Assembly: GCA_029862185.1 (NCBI GenBank)
Contig: JAOTXX010000005.1
Location: 1 to 64,000, forward strand
Length of the DNA stretch: 64,000 bases
Direction: 5' to 3'
Source: Myxococcales bacterium
GTDB taxonomy: Bacteria; Myxococcota_A; Polyangia; Polyangiales; Houyiibacteriaceae
Positions 22,291 to 41,900 of this stretch are shown here, one piece after another (within the stretch, counting starts at the first letter, position 1; each line of letters begins with the position of its first letter). The notes under the pieces are model-generated. The model saw nothing but the letters and a program-made list of their open reading frames with translations. It did not search any database and was not told where the DNA came from. The translations under genes were made by a program, and so were the position numbers.

Positions 22291-22391
22291 GCCGAAGGCG
22301 CAGCCATTTCGCTCCTGGGGCGCGGCCCTGCAGATGTTGCGCCGCACCACGGCTCATGTTGACGAATTATGACGGAAAGATGCAGCTCCAC

Positions 22392-22408
22392 GTGCCAGCC
22401 TTTGGCAC
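22392..22408 (+). promoter_or_regulatory. inverted repeat GTGCCA-N5-TGGCAC upstream of glycogen operon
   Basis: Perfect six-base arms (seven if the flanking C/G pair is counted) around GCCTT. The right arm is the -24 element of the promoter at 22403. The same arrangement, with spacer GACCT, is found at 37847-37863 in front of the NtrC-type regulator. It may be a protein-binding site overlapping the promoter, or opposed -24 elements. Confidence 0.45.
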
Positions 22409-22418
22409 GCCTCCTGCT
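22403..22418 (+). promoter_or_regulatory. sigma-54-type -24/-12 promoter for the glycogen operon
   Basis: TGGCAC-GCCTC-CTGCT: the -24 half (TGGCACG) is a perfect match and the GG/GC spacing is exact. The predicted start near 22429 leaves a leader of about 40 bases containing the AAAGGGG ribosome site of the debranching-enzyme gene. Confidence 0.6.
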
Positions 22419-22468
22419 TTGGGAGCTGCTTTCGACCCTTCGCGGAATTGGGTCTAAAGGGGGTTACT

Positions 22469-24460
22469 GTGATTTTGCCAACCTGGTTCCCATCTCGGTC
22501 CGACAGCGCGTCGGGGCTGCGCCTCCTCAGCAAGGCGCAGGGAAGCGAAGAAGACACCCTCGGAGCCGCCGCGACCACTCCGGCCGCTGAGTGGCTGACC
22601 GTCAATTCACGCGGTTCGTTTGCGATGGGAACGATCGATCGATGCCCTCGCCGGAAGTACCACGGGCTTCTGACCGTCCGGGAGCCAGGGGTCGGCGAGC
22701 CGCTTAACATGGTCGCCGAGGTCGAGGAGTGGCTCACGATCGGCGATCAAAGAGTCGCCCTGCACAGCTACAACTGGGGCAACACCGTCGAGCCGAACGG
22801 CGTCGACTACCTGAACCGCTTCGAGCCGTTGCCGCGTTGGACCTACGAGTTTGGCGGCGTCACGTTCACGCGGGAGCTCTGGCTCGAAGACGACGCCGAC
22901 GCGGTCTGGATTCGGTACACGATCGAAGGGCTCAGCGAGCCGGCCGACCTGCGGCTTCGTCCGCTGATCCGTTGCCGGCCGATCCACGAGCTGACCGTTG
23001 CAAATCCCTTCATGAACGGGGAGCTCGACGTCGAAGACGGCGAGTCGCTTCGCGTGGCCATGCACCCCTACAAGAACGTACCGGCCCTCATCACGAGTCT
23101 GCATGGCGCCCCAGGCGTCTTTCGCCCGGACGGCCACTGGTACGAAGGCGTTCACTACGAATGGGAACGCGAGCGCGGTTACGAGGATGCGGAGGACCTC
23201 TTCACACCGGGCGAATTCCGCCTCGAGGTCGACCATGATCGCGCGTTCTGCCTTCGACTCGGGACGACGCCGGCAGCCAGCCACGAGCCGCAGGTGCTCA
23301 GCTCGGTGCTGGGCTCACGCCGCTCGTTCGTTCAAGAGCTCGACGACGCGGCCGACGCGTACCTGGTCGAGCTTTCGGGGGATCGCACCGGAGTCATCGC
23401 CGGCTATCCCTGGTTTGGAGAATGGGGGCGGGATTCTTTGATCGCCCTGCCCGGCCTCTGCCTAGCCCGCAACGACGTCGATCGGGCCCTTGCGATACTC
23501 GAGTCACTCGCGGATCGCCTGGTGAACGGCCTCGTCCCCAATATTCCGCAAAGCGGTGACGTGCCGCCGAACGCAGAGTCGATCGACGCCTCGCTTCTCT
23601 TCATCCGAGCGACGGCCCTCACCGCCAAGCGAACGCGGAGCCGGCGCCTCACCGCCCTCCAAGAGGTCTGCCTCGACCTGATCGAGCGAATCGGCGGCGG
23701 CGCAGATCCCCGCGTGCACGTCGACGCGCAGGGTTTTCTCCTCGTCGATCATGGGCCCTGGGCGCTCACCTGGATGGACGCGCTCGTGGACGGTTGGCCG
23801 GTGACCCCTCGTCAGGGCTACGCGGTCGACCTGAACGCCCTCTGGCTTTCCGGGCTCACGACCGCGCTTCGCTGGGCGAAGAAACTTCGTCCGGCCTTTC
23901 GGGAAAAGTGGGGCGAAACCGCGAAGAAACTGTCCGATCATTTCGAGGAAAGATTCTGGCTTCAAGATCAGGGCTTCTTGACCGATACACACGATGGAAA
24001 CCACCCTGACGGACGGCTGCGGCCGAATCAGCTCTGGGCCCTCTCTCTGCCCGGCGTCCCGATCGACAAGGCCCACAAGAAACGGGCGCTCGCTGCGGTG
24101 CGTGAAAAGCTGCTCACCCGGGTGGGCCTGCGGACACTCTCGCCGGACGACCCCGGCTATCAACCGTTCTACCGCGGCGGGCAGTCGGAGCGGGACCGCG
24201 CCTACCATCAGGGAACCGTCTGGCCATGGCTTCTCGGCCTTTATGCCGATGCGGTCGAGGCGATCGAAGGCCCCCAGGCGGCTACAGAAGAGATGATTCC
24301 CGTGCTCGCATCACTTTCCGCGCACCTTCGGACCGAAGGGTGCATCGGACAGATCAGCGAGGTCTTCGATGGGGACGCGCCCCACCGCCCCGGAGGCGCG
24401 CCCGCACAAGCCTGGAGTGTGGCGGAGGTCCTGCGGGTCGCTAAGATGGCGAGTCCATGA
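22469..24460 (+). CDS. amylo-alpha-1,6-glucosidase (glycogen debranching enzyme)
   Basis: About 663 residues. I prefer GTG 22469, five bases after AAAGGGG; a TTG at 22448 would add seven residues. The N-terminal domain holds the family motif 'NSRGSFAMGTIDRC' followed by 'RRKYHGLL'; the C-terminal (alpha/alpha)6 glucosidase domain starts near 'AGYPWFGEWGRDSLIALPGL', where acidic residues of this GDE family act, and continues with 'YHQGTVWPWLLGLYADAV'. It removes alpha-1,6 branch stubs from glycogen. First gene of a four-gene operon; its stop overlaps the next ATG (ATGA). Confidence 0.92.
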   Translation: MILPTWFPSRSDSASGLRLLSKAQGSEEDTLGAAATTPAAEWLTVNSRGSFAMGTIDRCPRRKYHGLLTVREPGVGEPLNMVAEVEEWLTIGDQRVALHSYNWGNTVEPNGVDYLNRFEPLPRWTYEFGGVTFTRELWLEDDADAVWIRYTIEGLSEPADLRLRPLIRCRPIHELTVANPFMNGELDVEDGESLRVAMHPYKNVPALITSLHGAPGVFRPDGHWYEGVHYEWERERGYEDAEDLFTPGEFRLEVDHDRAFCLRLGTTPAASHEPQVLSSVLGSRRSFVQELDDAADAYLVELSGDRTGVIAGYPWFGEWGRDSLIALPGLCLARNDVDRALAILESLADRLVNGLVPNIPQSGDVPPNAESIDASLLFIRATALTAKRTRSRRLTALQEVCLDLIERIGGGADPRVHVDAQGFLLVDHGPWALTWMDALVDGWPVTPRQGYAVDLNALWLSGLTTALRWAKKLRPAFREKWGETAKKLSDHFEERFWLQDQGFLTDTHDGNHPDGRLRPNQLWALSLPGVPIDKAHKKRALAAVREKLLTRVGLRTLSPDDPGYQPFYRGGQSERDRAYHQGTVWPWLLGLYADAVEAIEGPQAATEEMIPVLASLSAHLRTEGCIGQISEVFDGDAPHRPGGAPAQAWSVAEVLRVAKMASP

Positions 24461-25965
24461 AGATCTTGATGCTGGGCTGGGAGTATCCTCCCCATATTAG
24501 CGGCGGGCTCGGGACTGCTTGCGAGGGGCTGACGACTGCGCTTGCGAGACGTGGCATCGAGATCGACTTCCTCGTGCCGAGGCTCTTCGGCGAGGAAGAT
24601 GCGCCGCACATGCAAATCTTGGGGGCGGCGTCCGCGGATTCGATGCCGGGGGCTCGGACTCCGGCCCCAACGCCAGTCCAGGTTCCCCTCGCACCACACG
24701 ATCCGCTCAGCCGATTGATCACCGCAGAGCCCGCGCTCGCCACCGACCCGATCTTCACGGCCGCGGCCGAGGCCGAGGCCGCCCGTGCCGGAGCAGCGGC
24801 GCTAGGCGAGCCAGGAGTTCGGATGATCCAGGTGCCGGCGATGCTGAAACCGTACCTGGACCAAAAGACGTACCGGGAGCTCATCGCGACAGGCGCGCTT
24901 CACGAAACTGCCATTGCCGAGATCCTGGCGTCGAAGATCTTGCATCCGTTGCCTGGTCCTCCGGGCGAGATGACCAGGCTCGAGCATGCTCACGTTCCGG
25001 GCGCGGACTTCTCGTATTCTCAAGAGTCGTCGAGCGGGGCGCATTATGGCGAGGACTTGTTTTCCGAGGTGGCTCGCTATGCCATGTCGGCCACCCGCCG
25101 CGTTCAGGGTCGCAAGTACGACCTGGTGCATGCGCACGACTGGATGACCTTCCCCGCGGGTGTCGAAATCGCGCACCGTGCTGGAGCCCCACTGCTCGTT
25201 CATGTGCACAGCCTCGAATACGATCGGGCAGGACATGGAGCCGATCGGGACATCGTCTCGGTGGAGCATCAAGGGCTCGAGGCCGCCACGCGGGTCATCG
25301 CGGTGAGCTACTACACACGCAACCTCATCAGCCGAGTCCACGGAACATCGCTCGACAAGATCTCGGTCGTACACAACGGAGTGTACGCGCGCGAAACGGT
25401 GCAAGCGTACACCGAGCAGCGCAGCTCCAAGGGGCCTGTCGTGCTTTTCCTCGGGCGAGTGACGTTTCAAAAGGGGCCGGAGTACTTCGTCCAAGCCGCC
25501 GCCCGCGTTCTGGAGCAGGTCCCCGATGCGGTGTTCATCATGGCGGGCTCCGGAGACATGCTTCCGCGGATGAAAGCCATGGTCGAGGAGCTCGGCATCA
25601 CCAAATCGTTCCGTTTTCCTGGTTTCGTTCGGGGCGCAGAGCTCGAGCGCACATTTTCGACCGCCGACGTGTACGTCATGCCGTCGGTTTCAGAGCCCTT
25701 CGGCATCGCTCCGCTCGAAGCGATGAGTTACGACCGACCGGTCATCGTGTCGAAGCAGTCCGGCGTATCCGAGGTGCTGCGCAACGCTCTCAAAGTCGAC
25801 TTCTGGGACGTCGACAAAATGGCCAGCCAAATCGTTGCCCTCCTGGAGCTTCCGGAATTGCGACGGGTCATCGTCGAACGAGCCCGGGAAGAGATCCGGC
25901 ACATCCACTGGGATGCCGCCGCCGAAACACTCATTCCAGTCTACGAGTCCGTCCTGCGCGGATGA
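24457..25965 (+). CDS. glycosyltransferase family 4, glycogen-synthase-like
   Basis: 502 residues, GT-B fold. N-terminus 'MKILMLGWEYPPHISGGLG' is the glycogen-synthase-like KxGGL-type loop; a Pro/Ala-rich insert occupies about residues 60-130. The C-terminal half has the sugar-nucleotide motif 'SEPFGIAPLEAM' (E-x7-E type). Such enzymes beside GDE and GH57 genes are thought to make or extend alpha-1,4-glucan from NDP-glucose. It overlaps the debranching gene by four bases and precedes the GH57 gene by eight. Confidence 0.88.
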   Translation: MKILMLGWEYPPHISGGLGTACEGLTTALARRGIEIDFLVPRLFGEEDAPHMQILGAASADSMPGARTPAPTPVQVPLAPHDPLSRLITAEPALATDPIFTAAAEAEAARAGAAALGEPGVRMIQVPAMLKPYLDQKTYRELIATGALHETAIAEILASKILHPLPGPPGEMTRLEHAHVPGADFSYSQESSSGAHYGEDLFSEVARYAMSATRRVQGRKYDLVHAHDWMTFPAGVEIAHRAGAPLLVHVHSLEYDRAGHGADRDIVSVEHQGLEAATRVIAVSYYTRNLISRVHGTSLDKISVVHNGVYARETVQAYTEQRSSKGPVVLFLGRVTFQKGPEYFVQAAARVLEQVPDAVFIMAGSGDMLPRMKAMVEELGITKSFRFPGFVRGAELERTFSTADVYVMPSVSEPFGIAPLEAMSYDRPVIVSKQSGVSEVLRNALKVDFWDVDKMASQIVALLELPELRRVIVERAREEIRHIHWDAAAETLIPVYESVLRG

Positions 25966-25973
25966 GGTGAGCC

Positions 25974-27176
25974 ATGCCGTCGGTCTGTTTCTATTTCGAA
26001 GTCCACCAACCTTATCGCCTGAAGCCCTATGGAGCGCTTCAGGTGGGTCGCGACCACAATTACTTCGACGAAAAGCTCAACGCCGAGGTTCTCCGCAAGG
26101 TGGCGAAGAAGTGCTATTTGCCGGCCAACGAGTCGATGCTTCGCCTCATCGAGCGGACCGATGGCCGCTTTCGTGTTTCGTACGCCGTGACGGGTGTGGC
26201 GATCGAGCAGATGAAGCTTTACGCGCCCGAGGTGCTCGACAGCTTCGTGCGGCTCGCAAAGACCGGCGCGGTCGAGCTCATTGCGGAGACTTATTACCAC
26301 AGTCTCGCGGCCCTGTACGACAAGGACGAGTACGGGGAGCAAATCGAGATGGAGCTGAAGCTCATCAAGTCGGAATTTGGGCAGGTGCCGCGCGTCTTCC
26401 GAAACACCGAGCTCATCTACAACGACGAGATCGGCCAGTTGATCGCGGACCAGGGCTTCGACGCGATGATCATCGAGGGTGCAGATGACGTTCTCGATTG
26501 GAGAAGCCCGAACTTCGTCTACCGCGTACCCGGCCGCGAGATGAAGTTGCTGGCAAAGAACTACAAGCTTTCCGACGACATTGCCTTCCGCTTCTCGAAC
26601 AAGGCTTGGGCCGATTATCCGCTCACTGCGGAGAAGTTTGCCGGTTGGGTCCATGGGCAGAGCGGTGCCGGCGATGTGATCAACCTGTTCATGGACTACG
26701 AGACATTTGGCGAGCATCAGTGGAAAGAAACGGGAATCTTCGACTTCCTCAGGCGCCTGCCGGACCTGCTCTTCACACATCCGCACTGGGACATCCTCAC
26801 GCCGAGCCAGGTCATCGATCGCTATCCGGCGCTTGGGGAGCTCCCGTTCCACCGAACGGTTTCCTGGGCCGACGAGGCTCGTGACGTCAGCGCCTGGCAA
26901 GGCAACGCGATGCAGCAGCGGGCGCTCGCCGAGATCTATTCACTGGGCAGCGCCGTCCGGAGACGCAATAATTCTCACTTGCTGGCCCTCTGGCGGCGCT
27001 TGCAGACTTCAGACCATTTCTACTACATGGCTACGAAATCTGACTCCGATGCGGCGGTGCATGACTACTTCAGTCCTTACGACGGGCCCTACGATGCCTT
27101 CATCCACTACATGAACGTCATGAAAGACTTGAACCTCTCGGTGCTAGCCCCGGCAGAGAAACAAATCCGGCTATGA
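25974..27176 (+). CDS. glycoside hydrolase family 57 (alpha-amylase type)
   Basis: 400 residues with GH57 motifs in order: 'FYFEVHQPYRL' (motif 1, HQP), 'FRNTELIYND' (probable nucleophile Glu), 'VNLFMDYETFGEHQW'-like segment (probable acid/base Asp; in the sequence 'INLFMDYETFGEHQW'). The length fits the short alpha-amylase-like GH57 branch rather than the longer GH57 branching enzymes. It should act on internal alpha-1,4 bonds of glycogen or maltodextrin in the cytoplasm, as no signal peptide is present. Stop overlaps the next ATG. Confidence 0.9.
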   Translation: MPSVCFYFEVHQPYRLKPYGALQVGRDHNYFDEKLNAEVLRKVAKKCYLPANESMLRLIERTDGRFRVSYAVTGVAIEQMKLYAPEVLDSFVRLAKTGAVELIAETYYHSLAALYDKDEYGEQIEMELKLIKSEFGQVPRVFRNTELIYNDEIGQLIADQGFDAMIIEGADDVLDWRSPNFVYRVPGREMKLLAKNYKLSDDIAFRFSNKAWADYPLTAEKFAGWVHGQSGAGDVINLFMDYETFGEHQWKETGIFDFLRRLPDLLFTHPHWDILTPSQVIDRYPALGELPFHRTVSWADEARDVSAWQGNAMQQRALAEIYSLGSAVRRRNNSHLLALWRRLQTSDHFYYMATKSDSDAAVHDYFSPYDGPYDAFIHYMNVMKDLNLSVLAPAEKQIRL

Positions 27177-30100
27177 GCAAGGCTGTCTTCTTCGAGATCT
27201 CTTGGGAGGTCTGCAACATGGTTGGCGGTATCCACACCGTGCTGGCCAGCCGTGTCCCAGAGGTGCAACAACGCCATGGGGAAGACGGGTACATCACGAT
27301 CGGGCCGGACGTCCCGCGGGGTGAAGGCGTCGCGCCGGAGTTTCGACCAGACATTTGGGATCGCAAGCTTGCGGACTCGCTCCAAGACCACGAGGTGGGC
27401 GTGGAAATGGGGCGCTGGTTGGTTCCAGGAGAGCCGCGTTGTCTGCTGATCAACCAGTCGCGCTTGTATCAGCGCAAGGACGAGATCCTCGGACGGTACT
27501 GGGAGCGCTACGAGCTCGATTCCTTGTTCGGAGCGTGGGACTACTACGATCCGGTGCTGTTCGGGCACGGCGCAGGCATGATCATCGAGCACATCCGTGA
27601 TCGCTACCTGCTTCCCGCGCGACAGACGGCGATCGTTCAGGCGCACGAGTGGATGTCGGCTAGCGCGATCCTACACCTACAGACCGCCGCGCCCGAAATC
27701 GGAACCGTGTTCACCACACACGCCACGATACTCGGCCGATCACTCGCAGCACTGCGAGCGGATCCCAACTTCTACGCATCGCTACCAAGCATCGAGCCCG
27801 AGGGCGCGGCCAAGGAGCTGAACGTGTCGTCGAAGCACTCGATGGAATCGGTGGCGGCGCAGGAAGCGGATGTGTTCACGACGGTCAGCGAGATCACCGC
27901 TTTGGAGTGCGAACATCTCCTAGGGAGAAAGCCGGACGTGATCTTGCTCAATGGCTTCGGCGCCAGGCCGGTGGAGCCGGAGCAGCGGCAGCGCGCGCGC
28001 GAGGAGCTCTTCAAGCTCGCCGAGCTCACGACGGGTGACCAGTACGATCGCGAGAACACTCTCATCTTCGCGCTCGCCGGCCGATATGAGTACATCAACA
28101 AGGGCGTGGACGTGTACCTCGACGCCGCGGCGGGCCTCCAAAAAGAGCTCGAATCGCGCCACGGGAAGCGAGTGCTCGTCTACGCGATGCTGCCCGCGGG
28201 CCACGCCGAGCCCAAACGTCTGCTCTGGGAGCGCTCCCATGGTGCTTCCGCCGGACCCCCACTGCGATGCACGCACGACCTCGTCGACGAGGCCAACGAC
28301 CCGATCACGAACCAGCTGAACGCGCTGGGCTTGCGTAACGCGCCGGGGGCTCCTGTGCACGTGGTGCACGTACCGATCTATCTCGACGGAACCGATCCGC
28401 TCATCCGTCACAAGTACTGGGACCTGCTTCCGGGCGCCGATCTCGGCGTCTTCCCGTCGTTCTACGAGCCATGGGGGTATACGCCGCTCGAAGCGGTGGC
28501 GTTTGGTGTCCCTGCGGTCACGACGGACCGCGCTGGGTTCGGTCGCTGGGTTGCGGCGCAGGGCGATGGGGACCGTACTGGTGTCAAGGTGCTCAAGCGT
28601 GAAGGTGTAACCACCACGGAAGTCACCGAGTCGCTGAAGGCCGCACTGCTCGAGTTCATCGATTTCCCGGCGATCGACCGTACGTCGCTTGGTGAAGCCT
28701 GTTTGAGAACCGCGGCCCTGACCGACTGGTCTAACTTCATGGTGAACTACGAGGAGGCGCACCGTCTCGCCCTCGCAGCGGGCGCTGCGCGTCGCAAAGA
28801 GTTGCCGATGGAGCGCTTGAGCGTCCCTTCGATGCCCGCGCCGTCTTCCGATTCCTCCGGTGTATTTGGCCTCTTCGTGAAGCCTCCCGTGGAGGAAGGA
28901 GAAGAGGGGGCTCCGTACACCCGAACCTTCGTTGTGGCGAACGCGCTTCCCGACGAGCTGCAAGCCCTGAGGGAGATCGCGTCCAATCTCTGGTGGCGTT
29001 GGCACCCCGAGGTCGGCGCGCTCTTCAAACGAATCGATCCGGCACTCTGGTTCAAGGTCGAGGAGAACCCGCATGCGCTCCTCGACCAGGTGAAGCCCGA
29101 TCGGCTCATGGCTGCGGCGGACGACGCGGAGTACGTCGCAGACCTCGGGCGGCTCCACCGAGAGATGATCGAGTCGACGGAAACGCAGGACGTACGAATC
29201 GCTTATTTTTGCATGGAGTTTGGACTCGCCGGCTTCTTGAAGCTCTACTCGGGAGGGCTCGGAATTCTCTCAGGCGACCACCTCAAGGCGGCAAGCGATT
29301 TGAACCTGCCCCTCTGCGCGGTCGGCCTCGCCTACCACGACGGATACTTCCACCAGATCATCGATCGTGACGGTCGACAGGAGGACCTCGGGGACACCAA
29401 CGATTTCGAGAACCCTCCGTTCGAGCCCGTCATGGTCGGGCGGTTCTCGCCGCTGCGAGTGACGGTCCCGCTGCCCACCGGCCCGGTACAAGTACAGGCC
29501 TGGCAATTGAAGGTCGGCAGGGTGCCGCTCTTCCTGCTCGATACCAACCTGCCGGAAAACAAGCCCGAAGACCGCGCGATCACCAACCGCTTGTACGGCG
29601 GGGACACCGCGCACCGTCTGCGACAGGAGATGGTCCTAGGCCTCGGAGGCTACCAACTGCTCACCGAGCTCGACATCGAACCGGATGTTTTTCACATGAA
29701 CGAAGGCCACAGCGCCTTCCTGCTCCTCGCGCGCGCAGCTCACCTGATCAAGAGGCACGGCCTCCGGTCTCAAGAGGCGTTCGAGTACATCCGAAATACG
29801 ACCGTATTCACCACGCACACGCCCGTGCCGGCCGGACATGACCATTTTCCCGAGGAGATGATACGCCCGTACCTGGCGCGATTCGAGCACGTGCTCCGCA
29901 TGGATTGGCCCCGTCTGCTCGCGATCGGAAATACGCCGAATAGCGCGGCCAACGAGTTCGGAACGACCGCGCTCGCCGTACGAAACGCGGGGCGAATCAA
30001 CGGGGTCAGCGCCAAGCACGGCGAAGTCGCGCGTGAGATGTTCCTTCAGTTCTTTCCGGAGTTCGATGACCCCGACGACGTGCCTTGCACGAGCATCACC

Positions 30101-31429
30101 AACGGCGTGCACGTTTCGACTTGGCTCGCACCTCGATGGCAACGGCTGATGGAACGGCAAATGGGGCACGACTGGCGTAACCAGATCGACGACCCTGATA
30201 GCTGGGAGTGGATGCGCGACCACGATCCAGCCGATCTCTGGGCGACGCATCGCGAGCTCCGCGCGGACTACGTCGATTGGCTAAAAGAGCACCTAACCGA
30301 GACCTGGACCCGACGGCGCGAGGACCTCTCTTTGCTCCGCGATATGCTCTCGAGGCTCGACGAAGATCGCATGTTCATCGGTTTCGCTCGACGGTTCGCA
30401 CCCTACAAACGTGCGGACTTGCTCCTGGACGAACCCGAACGGCTCGCCAAGCTGCTCAATGGCAATCCCGGCGCAACGATCATCTACGCTGGCAAGGCCC
30501 ATCCGGCCGACGGCCACGGGCAAGCACTATTACAGCGGGTCTACCAAGCTACGAAGCACCCGGATCTGGTAGGTCGGGTCATCTTCATGGAGGGCTACGC
30601 GATCGATTCGGCACGTCGAATGGTGGCTGGCTGCGATGTGTGGTTGAACACGCCTACGCGTCCGCTCGAGGCGAGCGGGACTTCCGGCATGAAGGCCGCC
30701 ATGAACGGCTGCCTGAACCTCAGCGTCGACGATGGCTGGTGGCTCGAGGGCTACGAAGAGAACAACGGCTGGGTGATCGACCTACCGGCGACCTCGATTC
30801 ACGACCCGAGCGCCTACGACCGCGCCGTGACGATGGCACTCCTCGAAGGCGAGATCCTGCCTAGCTACCACGATCGAAACGCCGACGGGGTCCCGGTGGC
30901 CTGGGTCGACCGGATGAAGGCCAGCATGTCGAGCATCATTCCGCGGTTCTCCGCTCGACGGATGGTCACCGACTATGCCGACAACTTCTACGAGCCAGCG
31001 ATGCGAGATGCGGTCGCCCTGCGCGACTCGAACTACCGGCCACTGTTCGCTTTGGCGGACCTGGCCGAGGCGATCCGAAGCCACTGGAACGAGATCGCGA
31101 TGGAAAGCGTCCGCTTCGGCGGCTTGAGCGGCAACGAGCTGGTCGTCGGCACGACGGTCTCTACCGAGCTTTCCCTCCATCACCCGGGGCTCGACGCCAG
31201 AGAGTTGGTGGTCGAAGCCGTGGTGACCTATGGCAGCCGGCTTCACGACCTCTCGTCGAGAATCGTCGTCCCATTCGAATCGGAGGACGGCGAAGGGCGG
31301 AGCACCTGGCGGGGCGCCTTTACCGTGAGGGCCAGCGGCGGCCACGAGCTGCGGTTCCGAGTCAGGCCGAAGGATCGGAGCCCACTACGGCCAGCAGCTC
31401 TCGGCATGCACATCCAAAAGTGGCTGTGA
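27173..31429 (+). CDS. fused GT3 glycogen synthase and GT35 alpha-glucan phosphorylase
   Basis: 1418 residues, two enzymes in one chain. Residues 1 to about 560 resemble eukaryotic-type GT3 glycogen synthase ('FFEISWEVCNMVGGIHTVL', then 'FPSFYEPWGYTPLEAVAFG'). After a linker near 560-590, the rest is a short-type alpha-glucan phosphorylase: 'YFCMEFGLAGFLKLYSGGLG' and the PLP lysine in 'EASGTSGMKAAMNGCLNLSV'. A final beta-rich domain covers the last hundred residues or so. GT3 would add glucose from UDP- or ADP-glucose, GT35 would release glucose-1-phosphate. The polypeptide closes the glycogen operon, in ATGA overlap with GH57. Confidence 0.9.
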   Translation: MSKAVFFEISWEVCNMVGGIHTVLASRVPEVQQRHGEDGYITIGPDVPRGEGVAPEFRPDIWDRKLADSLQDHEVGVEMGRWLVPGEPRCLLINQSRLYQRKDEILGRYWERYELDSLFGAWDYYDPVLFGHGAGMIIEHIRDRYLLPARQTAIVQAHEWMSASAILHLQTAAPEIGTVFTTHATILGRSLAALRADPNFYASLPSIEPEGAAKELNVSSKHSMESVAAQEADVFTTVSEITALECEHLLGRKPDVILLNGFGARPVEPEQRQRAREELFKLAELTTGDQYDRENTLIFALAGRYEYINKGVDVYLDAAAGLQKELESRHGKRVLVYAMLPAGHAEPKRLLWERSHGASAGPPLRCTHDLVDEANDPITNQLNALGLRNAPGAPVHVVHVPIYLDGTDPLIRHKYWDLLPGADLGVFPSFYEPWGYTPLEAVAFGVPAVTTDRAGFGRWVAAQGDGDRTGVKVLKREGVTTTEVTESLKAALLEFIDFPAIDRTSLGEACLRTAALTDWSNFMVNYEEAHRLALAAGAARRKELPMERLSVPSMPAPSSDSSGVFGLFVKPPVEEGEEGAPYTRTFVVANALPDELQALREIASNLWWRWHPEVGALFKRIDPALWFKVEENPHALLDQVKPDRLMAAADDAEYVADLGRLHREMIESTETQDVRIAYFCMEFGLAGFLKLYSGGLGILSGDHLKAASDLNLPLCAVGLAYHDGYFHQIIDRDGRQEDLGDTNDFENPPFEPVMVGRFSPLRVTVPLPTGPVQVQAWQLKVGRVPLFLLDTNLPENKPEDRAITNRLYGGDTAHRLRQEMVLGLGGYQLLTELDIEPDVFHMNEGHSAFLLLARAAHLIKRHGLRSQEAFEYIRNTTVFTTHTPVPAGHDHFPEEMIRPYLARFEHVLRMDWPRLLAIGNTPNSAANEFGTTALAVRNAGRINGVSAKHGEVAREMFLQFFPEFDDPDDVPCTSITNGVHVSTWLAPRWQRLMERQMGHDWRNQIDDPDSWEWMRDHDPADLWATHRELRADYVDWLKEHLTETWTRRREDLSLLRDMLSRLDEDRMFIGFARRFAPYKRADLLLDEPERLAKLLNGNPGATIIYAGKAHPADGHGQALLQRVYQATKHPDLVGRVIFMEGYAIDSARRMVAGCDVWLNTPTRPLEASGTSGMKAAMNGCLNLSVDDGWWLEGYEENNGWVIDLPATSIHDPSAYDRAVTMALLEGEILPSYHDRNADGVPVAWVDRMKASMSSIIPRFSARRMVTDYADNFYEPAMRDAVALRDSNYRPLFALADLAEAIRSHWNEIAMESVRFGGLSGNELVVGTTVSTELSLHHPGLDARELVVEAVVTYGSRLHDLSSRIVVPFESEDGEGRSTWRGAFTVRASGGHELRFRVRPKDRSPLRPAALGMHIQKWL

Positions 31430-32272: not shown

Positions 32273-32722
32273 TCAAATGACGATCGCTTCACCGAGATGT
32301 TGGATCAGCTCGGCCTCGGTGCTGGTCGCGAGGTCTTTGTCAACGGAGCCGATCACCAGCTGCGAAGTCGGTCCATCGAGCGCGGAACGCAGCAATCCCA
32401 AGAATCGCGGAGGCGCGACGAGAACCAGGCGGTCAAACTGATTTTGCACACGTCCGTGCCGGAGCTTGTTGGCGAGCGTTCTTGAAAAGTCGGAGACCAC
32501 CCTATCGTGCGGGCTCTCGCTTTGTCCCATCGAAGCGCGGCGCGGGTCACCGCTGTTTTTGCGAAACGAGCGTCCGGGACGATCGGAGTCGATGTCCCGA
32601 TCGCGCGCCCGGCCTTCAGGATGGTCGATCGATTGGACCAGAGCCAAGCCCTGGCCGATCCCATCGTTCGCGAACAATCGCGCGCCGGCCTCGTGTGCCA
32701 CCAAGATCCAAGTTCTTCCCAT
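32273..32722 (-). CDS. host attachment protein family (baeRF-like)
   Basis: 149 residues. 'WILVAHEAGARLFANDG' near the start and 'DHPEGRARDRDIDSDRPGRS' near residues 33-52 match the 'protein required for attachment to host cells' family, named from Agrobacterium. The core looks like the release-factor eRF1 domain-2 fold seen in bacterial archaeo-eukaryotic RF1 relatives, so a ribosome- or RNA-related role is possible. In free-living bacteria these genes often sit with USP and CBS stress genes, as here. True function unknown. Confidence 0.8.
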   Translation of the reverse strand: MGRTWILVAHEAGARLFANDGIGQGLALVQSIDHPEGRARDRDIDSDRPGRSFRKNSGDPRRASMGQSESPHDRVVSDFSRTLANKLRHGRVQNQFDRLVLVAPPRFLGLLRSALDGPTSQLVIGSVDKDLATSTEAELIQHLGEAIVI

Positions 32723-36260: not shown

Positions 36261-36379
36261 TTGGCAACCTGAACACCATCGGGTGAATATTTTGCGCTTG
36301 CTAAGATCGGAAACGCATAATATTCGCTGCTACAGGGTGTCTGACGCCCGTGTGTTGGGTTATTGGCTACCAGATACGT

Positions 36380-36395
36380 GGGCTTACATCTTGCT
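36380..36395 (+). promoter_or_regulatory. weak sigma-54-like element upstream of wax ester synthase
   Basis: GGGCTT-ACATC-TTGCT: good -12 half and correct spacing, poor -24 half. Ends 15 bases before the ATG, where no ribosome site is visible. Confidence 0.3.
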
Positions 36396-36410
36396 AGACA
36401 TCTCCACGCT

Positions 36411-37838
36411 ATGCCGGAAACATTCTACGAGCGATTGAGCGCTCTGGACGCGACGTTCCTGGACGTCGAGAGCAAGTCCGCCCCGATGCACGTGGGCGCC
36501 GCTCTAATTTTCGATGCGAAGCCTCTCACGCTCGAGCACGGAGGCCTCGATATCGAACGACTCACTCGATACACCAAGGCGGCGGTGGACTCGATTCCCC
36601 GCTACCGACAGCGGGTGGAGTGGATCCCGGGGTATGGACACCCGGTCTGGGTCGATGACGACCGTTTCAACATGCACTTCCATCTGCGCCACACGCGCTT
36701 GCCTCTGCCCGGCGATGAGCGTTCGCTCAAACGGCTGGTGGGTCGGCTCTTTTCGCAGCATCTCGATCGAAGCAGGCCATTGTGGGAATTCTGGGTGGTC
36801 GAGGGCGTCGAGAACGACTGCTTTGCCCTGATTATCAAAGTGCACCACTGCATGGTGGACGGCATCGCCGGCGTTGAGCTGCTGCAAGCCTTGTTGACAG
36901 TCAGTCCCGACGCCCCGGAGCGCGATCCACAGGAATGGAAGCCACGCCCGGCTCCGAGCCGCACACAGCTTCTCGTCGGTGAAACCAACCACCGCATCGA
37001 CGGCCTTCGCAAGCTAAGCCACTTCTTGCCGCGGGTTCGGCAGAACTTCCAGGGCCTATCGAGCTTGCTCCGATCAGGCATGAAGCCAGCTCCGAGGACG
37101 ATTTTTACCGAGCAGGATATCAGCCCCTACCGCCGATTCGATTGGGTTCGATTCGCGCTCGACGACGTGAAGGCGGTCAAGAACAGCCTGGGTGGAACGA
37201 TCAACGACGTGGTCGTCGCTACGGTAACCGGCGCCGTACGTCGCTTCCTCTTGCGGCGGGGCTCGGACGTCGACTCGATGGAAGGGTTTCGAACTGCTCT
37301 GCCGGTGAACATTCGCAAAGCCGGTGGTTCGACGGTTGGCAATCAGGTAGCTCTGCTTCTCGCCGATCTGCCGGTGTCCGAACCAGACCCCCTCGAGCGC
37401 CTGAGGAAAGTCATCCATGTGACGACCGAGCTGAAGAAGGAGTCGAACCAAACGGGCGGCGCCGAGCTGATCGAAGAAGTCGCAGACCTCACGACCAAAC
37501 GTATCGTGTCAGAGCTCTACTTGGTCGCGATGAAGCTACGCACTTACAACTTGATCATCACAAACGTGCCTGGGCCGCCCTTCCCCCTTTACCTGCTCAG
37601 CTCCCCCATGAAGGCGATCTATCCGATGGTTCCGCTGATGCAGAACCAGAATCTGGGCATCGCATTGTTCAGCTACGCCGGCGGGCTTCACTTTGGATTG
37701 AACGCGGACTGGGAGTCTTTTCCCGACGTCCACGAGTTTGTCGAGGATCTCGAAGCTTCGTTCGCGGAGTACAAGCAGCTCGCCGACGCCCGCTCGGCAG
37801 GACTCTCGGGAAGCGAAGACGCTACCGCCCGCGCCTAG
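36411..37838 (+). CDS. wax ester synthase/diacylglycerol acyltransferase (WS/DGAT)
   Basis: 475 residues from ATG 36411, starting 'MPETFYERLSALDATFLDVE' like actinobacterial and marine WS/DGATs. The catalytic HHxxxDG motif is His145-His146...Asp150 ('KVHHCMVDGIAGVEL'); later conserved segments are 'LGGTINDVVVATVTGAVRRF' and 'NLIITNVPGPPFPLYLLS'. It esterifies acyl-CoA with a fatty alcohol or diacylglycerol to make storage wax or triacylglycerol. The gene lies between a CBS gene and an NtrC-type regulator, so storage-lipid synthesis may answer to the same signal. Confidence 0.9.
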   Translation: MPETFYERLSALDATFLDVESKSAPMHVGAALIFDAKPLTLEHGGLDIERLTRYTKAAVDSIPRYRQRVEWIPGYGHPVWVDDDRFNMHFHLRHTRLPLPGDERSLKRLVGRLFSQHLDRSRPLWEFWVVEGVENDCFALIIKVHHCMVDGIAGVELLQALLTVSPDAPERDPQEWKPRPAPSRTQLLVGETNHRIDGLRKLSHFLPRVRQNFQGLSSLLRSGMKPAPRTIFTEQDISPYRRFDWVRFALDDVKAVKNSLGGTINDVVVATVTGAVRRFLLRRGSDVDSMEGFRTALPVNIRKAGGSTVGNQVALLLADLPVSEPDPLERLRKVIHVTTELKKESNQTGGAELIEEVADLTTKRIVSELYLVAMKLRTYNLIITNVPGPPFPLYLLSSPMKAIYPMVPLMQNQNLGIALFSYAGGLHFGLNADWESFPDVHEFVEDLEASFAEYKQLADARSAGLSGSEDATARA

Positions 37839-37846
37839 AAATCGAA

Positions 37847-37863
37847 GTGCCAGACCTTGGCAC
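37847..37863 (+). promoter_or_regulatory. inverted repeat GTGCCA-N5-TGGCAC upstream of NtrC-type regulator
   Basis: Perfect six-base arms around GACCT; the right arm is the -24 half of the element at 37858. Same design as 22392-22408 upstream of the glycogen operon. It begins nine bases after the wax ester synthase stop, so it could also act as a small hairpin there, but no T-run follows. Confidence 0.45.
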
Positions 37864-37873
37864 ATCAACTGCA
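37858..37873 (+). promoter_or_regulatory. sigma-54-type -24/-12 element upstream of NtrC-type regulator
   Basis: TGGCAC-ATCAA-CTGCA with exact GG/GC spacing. It would start transcription about three bases before ATG 37887; if translation instead begins at GTG 37962 (AAAGG four bases upstream), the leader would be a normal 78 bases. Suggests autoregulation. Confidence 0.5.
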
Positions 37874-37886
37874 AAGCAGAGTAATC

Positions 37887-39314
37887 ATGACTAGTGTAAA
37901 CACCGCATCCAACTTCTCCGACTCCGCCAAACGCGCAAACGTCGCAAACTCGAAAGGTCGCGTGTTGATCGTCGACGACGAAGCGAACGCGCGAAATGCG
38001 CTCGCGGAGCTCCTCGACGATGCCGGCTATTCCGTGAGCACCGCTGCCGACGGCCGTACGGCGCTACTGCAGTTGGAGCAGGTCGATCCCGATGTCGTCT
38101 TGACCGACCTCAAGATGCCGGGGATGGATGGCTTGTCGCTGATCGAACGCGGACGGCCGATGTCGCCCCATACCACGTTCATCGTGATGACGGCGTTCGC
38201 AACCATCGACACCGCTGTCAAAGCGATCAAGCTCGGTGCCGAGAGCTATCTCACCAAGCCCCTCGAGCTCGATGCCGTGATGGCGATCGTCGACCGCGCA
38301 CTTGATCGGACCCGTCTGTCACGGGAAGCCGCGCAGCTTCGCGAACGATTCGAGGAGCGCTTTCAACTTGGCAACATCCTGGGCGAGCACCCCTCGATGC
38401 AGCGCCTGATGAAAAACATCGCGCAAGTCGCTCGGAGTCGAGCGACCGTGCTGATCCATGGCGAAACCGGCACTGGCAAGGAGCTGATGGCCGCGGCCAT
38501 ACACCAGAACTCGAAGCGCAAAGACAAGCCCTTCATCAAGCTCAACTGCGCATCCTTGAGCGAAACACTGCTCGAGTCTGAGCTCTTTGGTCACGAACGC
38601 GGCTCGTTCACCGGCGCGGTGACGCGGCGCGAGGGGCGGTTCAAGCAGGCCGATGGCGGGACGCTCTTTCTCGACGAGGTGAGCGAAATCCCAGCCAGCG
38701 TCCAAATCAAGCTTCTGCGTTTCCTTCAAGAGCGCGAATTCGAGCGGGTCGGAGGAAATGAAACACTCAAAGTCGATGTCCGAGTCGTGGCGGCCACGAA
38801 CCGCAACTTGAAGCAACGGGTCGACGACGGAAGGTTCCGCGAGGACCTCTACTACAGGCTCAAGGTAGTCCAGCTCGACGTGCCGCCGCTCCGGGTTCGA
38901 CGAAGCGACATTCCTTTGTTGGCCCATGCGTTTCTACGCAAGTACGCTGGGGAGAACGACCGCTCGGTGCAAGGTCTATCCGAAGAAGCGTTGCAGCACC
39001 TGATGATCTATCCCTGGCCCGGCAACGTTCGAGAGCTGGAAAACGCGATCGAACGAGCCGTGGTCATGTGCGAAAACGAGCTGATCCAACGCGACGACTT
39101 GCCCACCTCCGCTCACGGGGACCTCCAAAACGGTTCGGTCTTGGCGCTGATTCCAGGCATCACGATGTCCGAGCTCGAACGGGTCGCGATCCTACGGACG
39201 CTGGATGCAGTAGACGGTTCCACCGCGCGCGCAGCCGAGATCCTCGGCATCAGCCAGCGAAAGATCCAATACCGAGTCAAGGAATGGGGCTATCAAACCG
39301 CAATGCTCGACTAA
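37887..39314 (+). CDS. NtrC-family sigma-54-dependent response regulator
   Basis: 475 residues: receiver domain (Asp30/31, phospho-acceptor Asp74 in 'VLTDLKMPGMDGL', Lys in 'SYLTKPLEL'), AAA+ domain (Walker A 'GETGTGKELMAAA', sigma-54 contact loop 'GSFTGA', a common variant of GAFTGA), 'LFLDEVSEIPASVQIKLLRF', and a Fis-type helix-turn-helix 'STARAAEILGISQRKIQYRV'. A GTG at 37962 is a possible later start; the first 25 residues are low complexity. It lies tail-to-tail with the globin-coupled histidine kinase, its probable partner, and can activate only sigma-54 promoters. Confidence 0.93.
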   Translation: MTSVNTASNFSDSAKRANVANSKGRVLIVDDEANARNALAELLDDAGYSVSTAADGRTALLQLEQVDPDVVLTDLKMPGMDGLSLIERGRPMSPHTTFIVMTAFATIDTAVKAIKLGAESYLTKPLELDAVMAIVDRALDRTRLSREAAQLRERFEERFQLGNILGEHPSMQRLMKNIAQVARSRATVLIHGETGTGKELMAAAIHQNSKRKDKPFIKLNCASLSETLLESELFGHERGSFTGAVTRREGRFKQADGGTLFLDEVSEIPASVQIKLLRFLQEREFERVGGNETLKVDVRVVAATNRNLKQRVDDGRFREDLYYRLKVVQLDVPPLRVRRSDIPLLAHAFLRKYAGENDRSVQGLSEEALQHLMIYPWPGNVRELENAIERAVVMCENELIQRDDLPTSAHGDLQNGSVLALIPGITMSELERVAILRTLDAVDGSTARAAEILGISQRKIQYRVKEWGYQTAMLD

Positions 39315-40492
39315 GTCCCCGTCGGAATCCAAAACGACGCGCAGGTGCCGCCTTCGGGGAGCGAGGTCAGCTTCGCCGCTCCCCCGTGCAAGTCGACGAT
39401 GCGCTTGACGATCGCAAGGCCAAGCCCCGTGCCAGCCTCCTTGGTGGTGACGAAGGATTCGAATGCCCGCCCGACGATCTCGCTCCGCAGGCCGGGACCG
39501 CTGTCGATCACCGCGACTTCCCACCGGTTATCGCTGAGCATCCGACTGGCGATCCGAATGCTCGGCTGACGGCAGCTGGCCACTGCTTCGACCGCATTGG
39601 TGATCAGGTTGTTGACGACCTGTTTGAGGCGGTCGCGTTCCGCAAGAAGGACGCAGGATACCGAATCGACGTCTTCGATGAACTCGATCCCCTGCGATTC
39701 GATCTCCGGACGTCGCAGCTCCAGTACCTCGCCGAGCAGCGTGCTTGCATTGCAACGGATCGGCTCCATCCGTTGCGCGCGCGCCAGGTTCAGGAAATCG
39801 TCGAGCAAGACTGACAAGCGCCGGAGCTCGTCCTGCACGACGTTGGTTCGCCTTTCGATCTTCCGGCGCGTCGATGCGTCCTCGACCTTGGAGGCCGTGC
39901 GTCGAAGCACATCGAGCTGAAGCTTGGCAGCGTTGAGAGGATTTCGTACCTCGTGGGCCAACCCTGCCGTCAGCCTTCCCATCACCGCCAGCGACTCCGC
40001 TTCGGCAGTCTTCTTGAGCACGTAATCCTCTCGGTAGGTCTCGAGCATGATGGCGAGCTCGATGTCGCAAATCTGGTCGATGACGCTGTGATCGTCGAAG
40101 ACCCCGAGGCCGTCCGGAGACGAATCGGATACCGCGCGATGAAGCCCGATTCGGATCAGATTCATCGCGCTGAGCATGTAGCGCTGCTCGAGCCCAACCA
40201 TCACGTGAACGCGGCCGATTTGGGCTCGCTTCTCGTAGTACGCAGCGTCGTACGGTCCAGTGAAAAGCCCTTCGAGCCAATGCAGCAAGGAAGCCCGGAG
40301 GCGCCGGATCTGGTCTTCGCTCGTGAGGATGGCGCGGGTGCCCGGGTCCTTGAGGATGGCCTCGTAGAATCGGTCGACGACGCGTTGGTGATAGGGCTCC
40401 ATGCGTGTGCGCATCGCCTGCAGGCGACGGGCGCACGCGGCGTCGAACCCCACGTAGTCCCTGAGCAGCGGGAGAAGGCTGGCGTCGGCCAT
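39311..40492 (-). CDS. globin-coupled sensor histidine kinase
   Basis: 393 residues. Residues 1-160 form a protoglobin-type sensor: 'MEPYHQRVVDRFYEAILKDP' and the proximal-His candidate His96 in 'RAQIGRVHVMVGLEQRYML'. A short coiled segment leads to the kinase core with phospho-His180 ('GRLTAGLAHEVRNPLNAAKL'), N box 'NNLITNAVEA', 'VIDSGPGL' and 'TGLGLAIVKRIVDLHGG'. No membrane helices, so it should sense cytoplasmic O2 or NO through haem. Stops of kinase and NtrC-type gene overlap by four bases, convergent. A TTGACA at 40522-40527 with a poor -10 (TAGCCA) lies just upstream. Confidence 0.88.
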   Translation of the reverse strand: MADASLLPLLRDYVGFDAACARRLQAMRTRMEPYHQRVVDRFYEAILKDPGTRAILTSEDQIRRLRASLLHWLEGLFTGPYDAAYYEKRAQIGRVHVMVGLEQRYMLSAMNLIRIGLHRAVSDSSPDGLGVFDDHSVIDQICDIELAIMLETYREDYVLKKTAEAESLAVMGRLTAGLAHEVRNPLNAAKLQLDVLRRTASKVEDASTRRKIERRTNVVQDELRRLSVLLDDFLNLARAQRMEPIRCNASTLLGEVLELRRPEIESQGIEFIEDVDSVSCVLLAERDRLKQVVNNLITNAVEAVASCRQPSIRIASRMLSDNRWEVAVIDSGPGLRSEIVGRAFESFVTTKEAGTGLGLAIVKRIVDLHGGAAKLTSLPEGGTCASFWIPTGT

Positions 40493-40549: not shown

Positions 40550-41026
40550 TCAAAAAGCGGCGAGCGCAGGAAGCCTGACCATGCTCACCGGACAGGGAGC
40601 GTCCGCGGCTAGCCTCCGGACGTCGATTGGACTGAGCTGGTCCGCGCCGCCGCTCAGCTGAATGCCAAGCAGAATCAAGTCCACGCCGGAACGCTTGGCA
40701 CTCTGCACTACGTAGTCAGGCCAGTGCCCCTCTTCGTAGAGCTCGGCGCGGCAGCGAACACCGCGATCGGCGCACCATTGCCGTTGCCGCTCCAGGAGCT
40801 GCCCCTCCTGGCGAAGCCTGGCCTCGACTCGGTCGCGCCAGCCATCCGCATTGTCACGCATCGAAGGGGGAGGCTCAGAGCGCCGACTCCCACCACCCCC
40901 ATAGGTCGACACCAAGACCACCTCGCCGTCGGTAGGGCCTGCAATGAGCGCAGCGAAGCTCACGAGCTTGTAGCTCGCGGATGTCAAATCGGTAACCGTG
41001 AGAACGCTCGTAGCCATTTGGAACAT
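40550..41026 (-). CDS. universal stress protein-like protein
   Basis: 158 residues (149-155 if a later ATG such as 41017 is used). UspA-like fold: 'VLTVTDLTSASYKLVSFAAL' at the start and 'RSGVDLILLGIQLSGG' in the nucleotide region, but the G-x2-G-x9-G-S/T loop is absent, placing it in the branch that does not bind ATP. The middle (residues 48-75) is Arg/Glu-rich. It has the best sigma-54-type element in the window directly upstream. Confidence 0.75.
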   Translation of the reverse strand: MFQMATSVLTVTDLTSASYKLVSFAALIAGPTDGEVVLVSTYGGGGSRRSEPPPSMRDNADGWRDRVEARLRQEGQLLERQRQWCADRGVRCRAELYEEGHWPDYVVQSAKRSGVDLILLGIQLSGGADQLSPIDVRRLAADAPCPVSMVRLPALAAF

Positions 41027-41045
41027 GGAACCCAGTCAAAGCTCC

Positions 41046-41061
41046 AGCAAGGTGCGTGCCA
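41046..41061 (-). promoter_or_regulatory. sigma-54-type -24/-12 promoter, full consensus match
   Basis: Minus strand TGGCACG-CACC-TTGCT: every consensus base (TGGCACG-N4-TTGCW) matches. Predicted start near 41035, upstream of the USP-like gene. Confidence 0.65.
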
Positions 41062-41174
41062 TTCCAGAAACCCCCCGCAAGAGCCCGTTGATCCCTCGCC
41101 GTTCGGCAACGCTTGCGGGCAAAGCTCCAAATACGCAGTTTTTGCGCGCGACGATCCGAAGGCTAAGCTCGCGC

Positions 41175-41900
41175 ATGGGTGATTCCCGGCGTCACCGTGG
41201 GCCGCATCCCACCGATGCACAATTATTCTCCATACAGGCGCTCCCGGCGTTGACCGCGGCGGTCGCGGACCTGAGCTGGCTCCGGACGCGAGGGTACGCC
41301 GATGCGTCGGCGGTCAAGCTCGTCGGGGATCGATATCGATTGCGGAATCGTCAACGCACTGCGGCAAAGAGGTGTGCCTGCTCGGACTCGGCGCAGCGGG
41401 ACCGAGCATCGAGGCAATGCGACCCGGAAATGATGAACGCGCGTCATCTGTTCATCGACGGCCTCAACGTGATCACTACGATCGAGGTGGCCTTGGCCAG
41501 GGGGGTGTTGCTGCTCGGCCGCGACGCTTGCCTGCGAGACATGGCGAGCTTCCATGGCAGCTATCGCCTGGTGCAGGAGACCGAGCGAGCCGTCGAAATC
41601 CTCGTCGACGTCGTCGATTCGCTGCGGCCGTCGGAGGTGACGGTGTACATCGACCGCCCGGTTTCGAACTCAGGCCGCCTCGCCGAGATTGTACGGACGA
41701 CGGCAGCCAGGAAAGGGGCGCCCATCCAAGCGACGACGGCGGACCGGGTAGACGAATTGCTGAAAGCTTCGACTGTGGTGGTTGCAAGCGCCGACAGCGC
41801 GATCCTCGATGAATGCGGCGACTGGCTGAACCTGGCGCGAATCGCGGTCGAGCGTCATCAGGCCGAGCTCGAGCCGCTCTGGCTATTGAACTTGTCTTGA
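41175..41900 (+). CDS. DUF434 family protein
   Basis: 241 residues. The N-terminal part 'LTAAVADLSWLRTRGYADAS' followed by 'AVKLVGDRYRLRNRQRTAAK' is typical of DUF434; the C-terminal part ('HLFIDGLNVITTIEVALARG', then 'RPSEVTVYIDRPVSNSGRLA') looks like a Rossmann/PIN-like fold with an acidic 'IDGLNV' opening and 'ASADSAILDECGDW'. The family is often annotated as unknown; PIN-like features suggest a nucleotide or RNA role but I would not claim it. ATG 41175 chosen because upstream residues lie across the USP promoter. Confidence 0.72.
   Translation: MGDSRRHRGPHPTDAQLFSIQALPALTAAVADLSWLRTRGYADASAVKLVGDRYRLRNRQRTAAKRCACSDSAQRDRASRQCDPEMMNARHLFIDGLNVITTIEVALARGVLLLGRDACLRDMASFHGSYRLVQETERAVEILVDVVDSLRPSEVTVYIDRPVSNSGRLAEIVRTTAARKGAPIQATTADRVDELLKASTVVVASADSAILDECGDWLNLARIAVERHQAELEPLWLLNLS

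Follow-up and report, generated by a model that had tools for sequence, protein, structure and literature searches.

In textbook glycogen metabolism, the synthase and the phosphorylase are separate proteins that are oppositely regulated. The two activities are combined by name in a single KEGG ortholog group, K16153, “glycogen phosphorylase/synthase” (EC 2.4.1.1 2.4.1.11), which is listed in PMC8307300. That name was the only trace of a GT3-GT35 fusion in the literature searched, in which we found no biochemical paper on the fused enzyme and no activity measurement for any fused member. Passages of a 2024 Chem Rev review that cover TreS-Mak fusions (PMC11046441) do not mention it. In a GlgA-GlgB fusion reported from Chlamydiae, the synthase half is functional whereas the branching half is not (PMC7935935), a case that calls for caution here, since the activity of fused halves needs assays.

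We analyzed a GT3-GT35 fusion gene in a 64,000-nucleotide stretch of a Myxococcales genome (the window). An earlier note, made from the sequence alone, had placed this gene in an operon with debranching and GH57 enzymes. The operon was borne out, and a GT4 gene sits between those two. The order is GH133-GT4-GH57-fusion, with the fusion last and 4-bp overlaps at the GH133/GT4 and GH57/fusion junctions; at the latter, the start of the fusion overlaps the stop of the GH57 gene (ATGA at 27173 to 27176). The features are as follows.

22403 to 22418, forward strand: putative sigma-54-type (-24/-12) promoter before the operon, TGGCACG-N4-CTGCT (11 of 12 consensus letters)
22448 to 24460, forward strand: GH133-type (archaeal-type) glycogen debranching enzyme (PF06202, 313 bits; PF12439, 183 bits)
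24457 to 25965, forward strand: GT4 glycosyltransferase (PF00534, 118 bits)
25974 to 27176, forward strand: GH57 glycoside hydrolase (PF03065, 267 bits)
27173 to 31429, forward strand: GT3-GT35 fusion, glycogen synthase-glycogen phosphorylase, 1418 amino acids (Pfam, NCBIfam, alignments)
27173 to 28807, forward strand: GT3 glycogen synthase half, residues 1 to 545 (PF05693, kept motifs, AlphaFold model)
28826 to 28930, forward strand: predicted flexible linker, residues 552 to 586 (pLDDT below 50, no near-invariant residue)
28946 to 29230, forward strand: DUF3417, N-terminal domain of the phosphorylase, residues 592 to 686 (PF11897)
29198 to 30997, forward strand: GT35 alpha-glucan phosphorylase catalytic region, residues 676 to 1275, with PLP lysine K1174 (TIGR02094)
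31088 to 31426, forward strand: C-terminal beta domain, about residues 1306 to 1418 (strands in the model)

The fusion gene runs from ATG to stop in one frame with zero internal stops, and both family profiles score far over their cut-offs, which confirms the initial reading of a GT3 and a GT35 enzyme in one chain of 1,418 residues. The Pfam profile Glycogen_syn (PF05693) gave 296.5 bits against a cut-off of 27, and the NCBIfam profile TIGR02094 gave 716 bits over residues 676 to 1275 against a cut-off of 191.7. Pfam also recognized DUF3417 (90 bits) and, at residues 839 to 1192, the Phosphorylase profile (91 bits). A phmmer search of the PDB matched residues 5 to 556 to Gsy2p and GYS1 and residues 579 to 1315 to the Segatella copri phosphorylase 9l6i. 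No regulatory domain was found in the fusion protein.

Conservation was counted in an alignment of 77 fused proteins. In the GT3 half, which has the E-x7-E motif and the Arg/Lys donor-phosphate contacts of its family, R304, K310, E432, and E440 are kept in all 77 proteins and R189 is kept in 76, the remaining row being a gap; the key residues of the motifs THATxLGR (182 to 189) and GRYEYxNKG (303 to 311) are likewise kept in 76 to 77 of 77. The GT35 half has the PLP lysine and phosphate-site Arg/Lys of its own family: H882 is kept in 77/77 proteins, R1074, Y1078, and K1079 in each of the 75 rows that have letters there, and K1174 in each of the 73 rows that can be read at its position. We take the catalytic and donor-phosphate roles of the GT3 residues to be those of Gsy2p and GYS1, and the PLP-lysine and phosphate-site roles in GT35 to be those of GPb. 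Within the genus, dN/dS is about 0.05 to 0.09 in both catalytic halves and about 0.15 to 0.23 in DUF3417. These ratios indicate that the GT3 and GT35 halves are both under purifying selection, and both look active. The earlier note had described both active-site regions as intact; the catalytic motifs are essentially invariant across the 77 proteins, and loss of essential residues was seen in neither half.

The halves were modelled separately with AlphaFold, from alignments of 52 and 51 sequences, and both models are confident. The best PDB match of the GT3-half model is human GYS1 (8z0a; TM 0.67/0.76). The model of the C-terminal 873 residues aligns with 9l6i over 856 columns (TM 0.90, 35% identity). 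DUF3417 and the C-terminal beta domain are thus parts of the phosphorylase, and 9l6i apparently has the beta domain too. Structure prediction of the linker near residues 560 to 590, proposed at the outset as a check, returned disorder: pLDDT is below 50 for residues 552 to 586 of the first model and for residues 1 to 30 of the second (equivalent to 546 to 575). Residues 546 to 590 include no near-invariant residue among the 77 fused proteins, and the segment that separates residues 545 and 592 ranges from 24 to 49 residues among fused proteins. A linker that is long, not conserved, and predicted to be disordered would fit the tethering that the earlier note proposed.

Gene order and strand of the operon are shared by most fused loci across phyla. 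Conservation was assessed in the 58 fused loci that have 5 kb or more of upstream sequence, which are related rather than independent yet span phyla; GH133, GT4, and GH57 genes lie upstream, on the same strand and within 7 kb, in 49, 49, and 46 of them, respectively. Upstream CoA-transferase and universal stress genes were seen in loci of the host genus only. The GH133 gene scored 277 bits against TIGR01561, below the cut-off of 364, and its true start is likely the GTG at 22469, because coding conservation begins at GTG ATT. The GT4 protein has PDB relatives in 3c4q (E 2e-19) and 6tvp (E 4e-18) and distantly resembles MshA and the maltose-1-phosphate synthase GlgM; for the GH57 protein, a search by sequence found no relative of solved structure.

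The TGGCA..CTGC core of the sigma-54 site is kept in all 10 aligned genus members (window included), where it sits in a diverged intergenic region and its middle letters vary. On one strand, the sigma-54 scan has a background of 0.034 per 750 bp at a score of at least 10. In most loci of other phyla, the site was not detected ahead of the operon. A promoter/terminator scan gave nothing above chance, and for a conserved element at 22357 to 22377, on the upstream side of the sigma-54 site, the window offers no other convincing copy. Control of the operon by sigma-54 is probable in this genome, judging from the conserved site. More sigma-54-type matches were detected on the reverse strand at 41061 to 41046 (a perfect match), 33127 to 33112, and 35760 to 35745, near genes for a sigma-54 response regulator (37857 to 39314) and a protoglobin histidine kinase (39311 to 40492). 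Possibly, these matches mark a low-oxygen or storage regulon that includes universal stress proteins and a wax-ester synthase. A wax ester/triacylglycerol synthase (WS/DGAT) gene, a second storage-compound gene, lies about 5 kb downstream of the operon (36363 to 37838, forward strand), and another WS/DGAT copy was found elsewhere (L188:12424-14196, reverse strand). The same stress-gene neighborhood holds genes for a Host_attach/baeRF12 protein (32273 to 32722, reverse strand) and a DUF434-DUF5616 protein (40998 to 41900, forward strand).

Eight of the 18 other genus members searched have the fusion over residues 1 to 1418 at 81 to 89% identity. A ninth has residues 95 to 1418, its frame cut by the contig end, and the contig is also cut in several further members. 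Among 80 fetched genome loci, the genus loci being largely the same contigs as in the 18-member search, 61 align over at least 1,340 query residues, each as a single ORF except L037. These 61 loci come from at least seven phyla (Myxococcota, Bdellovibrionota, Planctomycetota, Bacteroidota, Thermodesulfobacteriota, Pseudomonadota, and Acidobacteriota). Shorter frames replace the fusion in three MAGs of close relatives (L033, L035, and L037), probably as a result of sequencing or assembly errors. Slightly shorter fusions of about 1,260 amino acids occur in a Caenarcanales MAG and a cyanobacterial MAG (L098 and L103), in which the C-terminal domain is apparently missing and GH133 lies on the opposite strand. 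The distribution is patchy. In 189 genomes of Myxococcota, an intact fusion was found in G112, G162, and G183 and in five members of the genus, counting the window genome; it was found in about 12 of 99 genomes of Planctomycetota and 3 of 97 of Bdellovibrionota (seeds included), and the seed was the only one of 118 Bacteroidota genomes to have it.

In the GT3 tree, a fully supported branch separates 84 fused proteins and four members of Bacteroidales pairs from 14 other GT3s (11 that stand alone and 3 from a different pairing). The Bacteroidales pairs nest inside the Bacteroidota fused group in the GT3 and GT35 trees alike, and a later, secondary split of the Bacteroidales pair is therefore the simplest reading. 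In the GT35 tree, a quick tree with few outgroups, one fused clade has long stand-alone phosphorylases as its sister group; on this topology, either these phosphorylases would have lost GT3 or the fusion would have arisen more than once. Patristic distances of the two halves correlate with an r of 0.95 across 91 fused or paired proteins (none of 999 permutations reached this value), as expected if the halves travelled together.

Long open frames in L174 and L175 had looked like a second type of fusion and proved on inspection to be a pair of neighboring genes divided by a stop. At these loci and a third (L174:4360-8301, reverse strand; L175:4670-8653; L177:4472-8366), a eukaryote-like GT3 gene immediately precedes a short GT35 gene; one in-frame stop parts the two frames in L174 and L175, and the pairing falls outside the fused clade in both trees.

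We infer from the gene content that the GT3 half likely uses UDP-glucose as its donor: GlgC had no match over cut-off in the genome, and a UDPGP-type pyrophosphorylase is present. GalU had no match over cut-off either. The same genome carries a stand-alone GT3 of eukaryotic-type length (C89; L188:6852-8876), which keeps RRDR and matches eukaryotic synthases over nearly the whole GT3 length. We also detected a classical GlgP-MalQ-GlgX cluster (C145), a GlgB-like GH13 enzyme, and a GT5-like GlgA. With these additional genes at hand, the fusion may serve one condition only.

We consider it probable that the fusion is a bifunctional glycogen enzyme, with a linker that holds two independent catalysts to the same glycogen. 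The N-terminal GT3 half would lengthen alpha-1,4-glucan chains, most likely from UDP-glucose, and the C-terminal GT35 half would shorten them with PLP, releasing glucose-1-phosphate by phosphorolysis. On a flexible tether of roughly 35 residues, the two halves would work as independent catalysts, made in equal numbers and both held on the same glycogen particle. The direction of turnover would be set by substrates (UDP-glucose versus phosphate) and by operon-level control, here probably sigma-54, and the operon would contribute a debranching activity (GH133), a glucan enzyme of family GH57, and a GT4 enzyme. The presence of both activities, a benefit from co-localization, and the absence of direct cross-regulation are the parts of this reading that we infer.

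The earlier note had pointed out that a frameshift or an assembly join of two genes could mimic a fusion. The broken frames in L037, L033, and L035 show that MAG errors do occur here, but the same two-domain order, in the same full-length single frame, recurs on many independently assembled contigs from at least seven phyla, which refutes a join or frameshift and makes an artefact extremely improbable. It is also very unlikely that one half alone catalyzes in vivo while the other serves as a glucan-binding platform. The other GT3 and GT35 enzymes in the genome would allow such an arrangement, but the essentially invariant catalytic residues on both sides in 77 proteins and dN/dS values that are about equally low led us to reject a dead half as unlikely.

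Two further readings accept that both halves work. Reciprocal control within one chain, which the earlier note had also proposed and in which ligand binding or conformation of one half inhibits the other and so averts a futile cycle, is suggested by the sharing of one polypeptide by opposing activities and by the persistence of the fusion across phyla. We regard it as unlikely, given that no regulatory domain was found, that the linker is predicted to be disordered and is not conserved, that Bacteroidales have split pairs in separate adjacent genes, and that the eukaryotic Arg cluster (G6P/phosphate control) is not conserved. Slightly less doubtful is chain-length editing, in which both halves would work while glycogen is being synthesized: GT3 would elongate, and GT35 would trim outer chains or add glucose back from glucose-1-phosphate; to a similarly small degree of likelihood, the fusion would then set chain length and not switch between storage and use. 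The phosphorylase reaction is reversible, debranching and GH57 enzymes are co-encoded, and the genome has other glycogen-degrading enzymes, all of which count for editing, but sequence cannot single it out.

If the fusion is such a bifunctional enzyme, its retention across phyla with both sites intact would mean that equal dosage and proximity are tolerated or favored, and it would offer a simple system for asking how a futile cycle is prevented where the eukaryotic switch is lacking. In many uncultured bacteria, the conserved GH133-GT4-GH57-fusion cassette also ties GT4 and GH57 genes to glycogen. We speculate, as a long shot, that the four-gene cassette found across phyla defines a bifunctional class in which the opposing synthase and phosphorylase work at shared chain ends and are genuinely coupled, kinetically or allosterically; if true, this coupling would be a regulatory principle for storage glucans unlike eukaryotic control by phosphorylation and G6P.

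Compared with known systems, the GT3 half has the fold and catalytic motifs of yeast Gsy2p and human GYS1 in common but largely lacks about 78 residues that lie between positions 380 and 459 of Gsy2p (tagged numbering). The regulatory-helix Arg cluster RRQRINQRNR of Gsy2p/GYS1, which marks eukaryotic-type allosteric GT3 enzymes (G6P/phosphorylation switch), is not kept: the fusion has FPAIDRTSLGEACLR where the Arg cluster has KTRRQRINQRNRTER, and the GT3 of the 77 fused proteins has no conserved Arg series. Eukaryotic-style allostery in the GT3 half was rejected because this defining cluster is absent. The C-terminal part resembles Segatella copri glycogen phosphorylase (9l6i) end to end, DUF3417 and C-terminal domain included, but 9l6i is a stand-alone protein without a GT3 half. 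The Bacteroidales Bacteroides finegoldii and Parabacteroides distasonis encode the same two proteins in the same order (GT3 glycogen synthase and glgP), although as two separate annotated CDSs 38 to 73 bp apart. KEGG K16153 is one ortholog group with both activities by name, which fits the domain content of the fusion, and the domains and motifs place both enzymes in one polypeptide. By name and domain content, we therefore assign the fusion to the K16153 type; since that type is already named in KEGG, the fusion protein is not new as a type.
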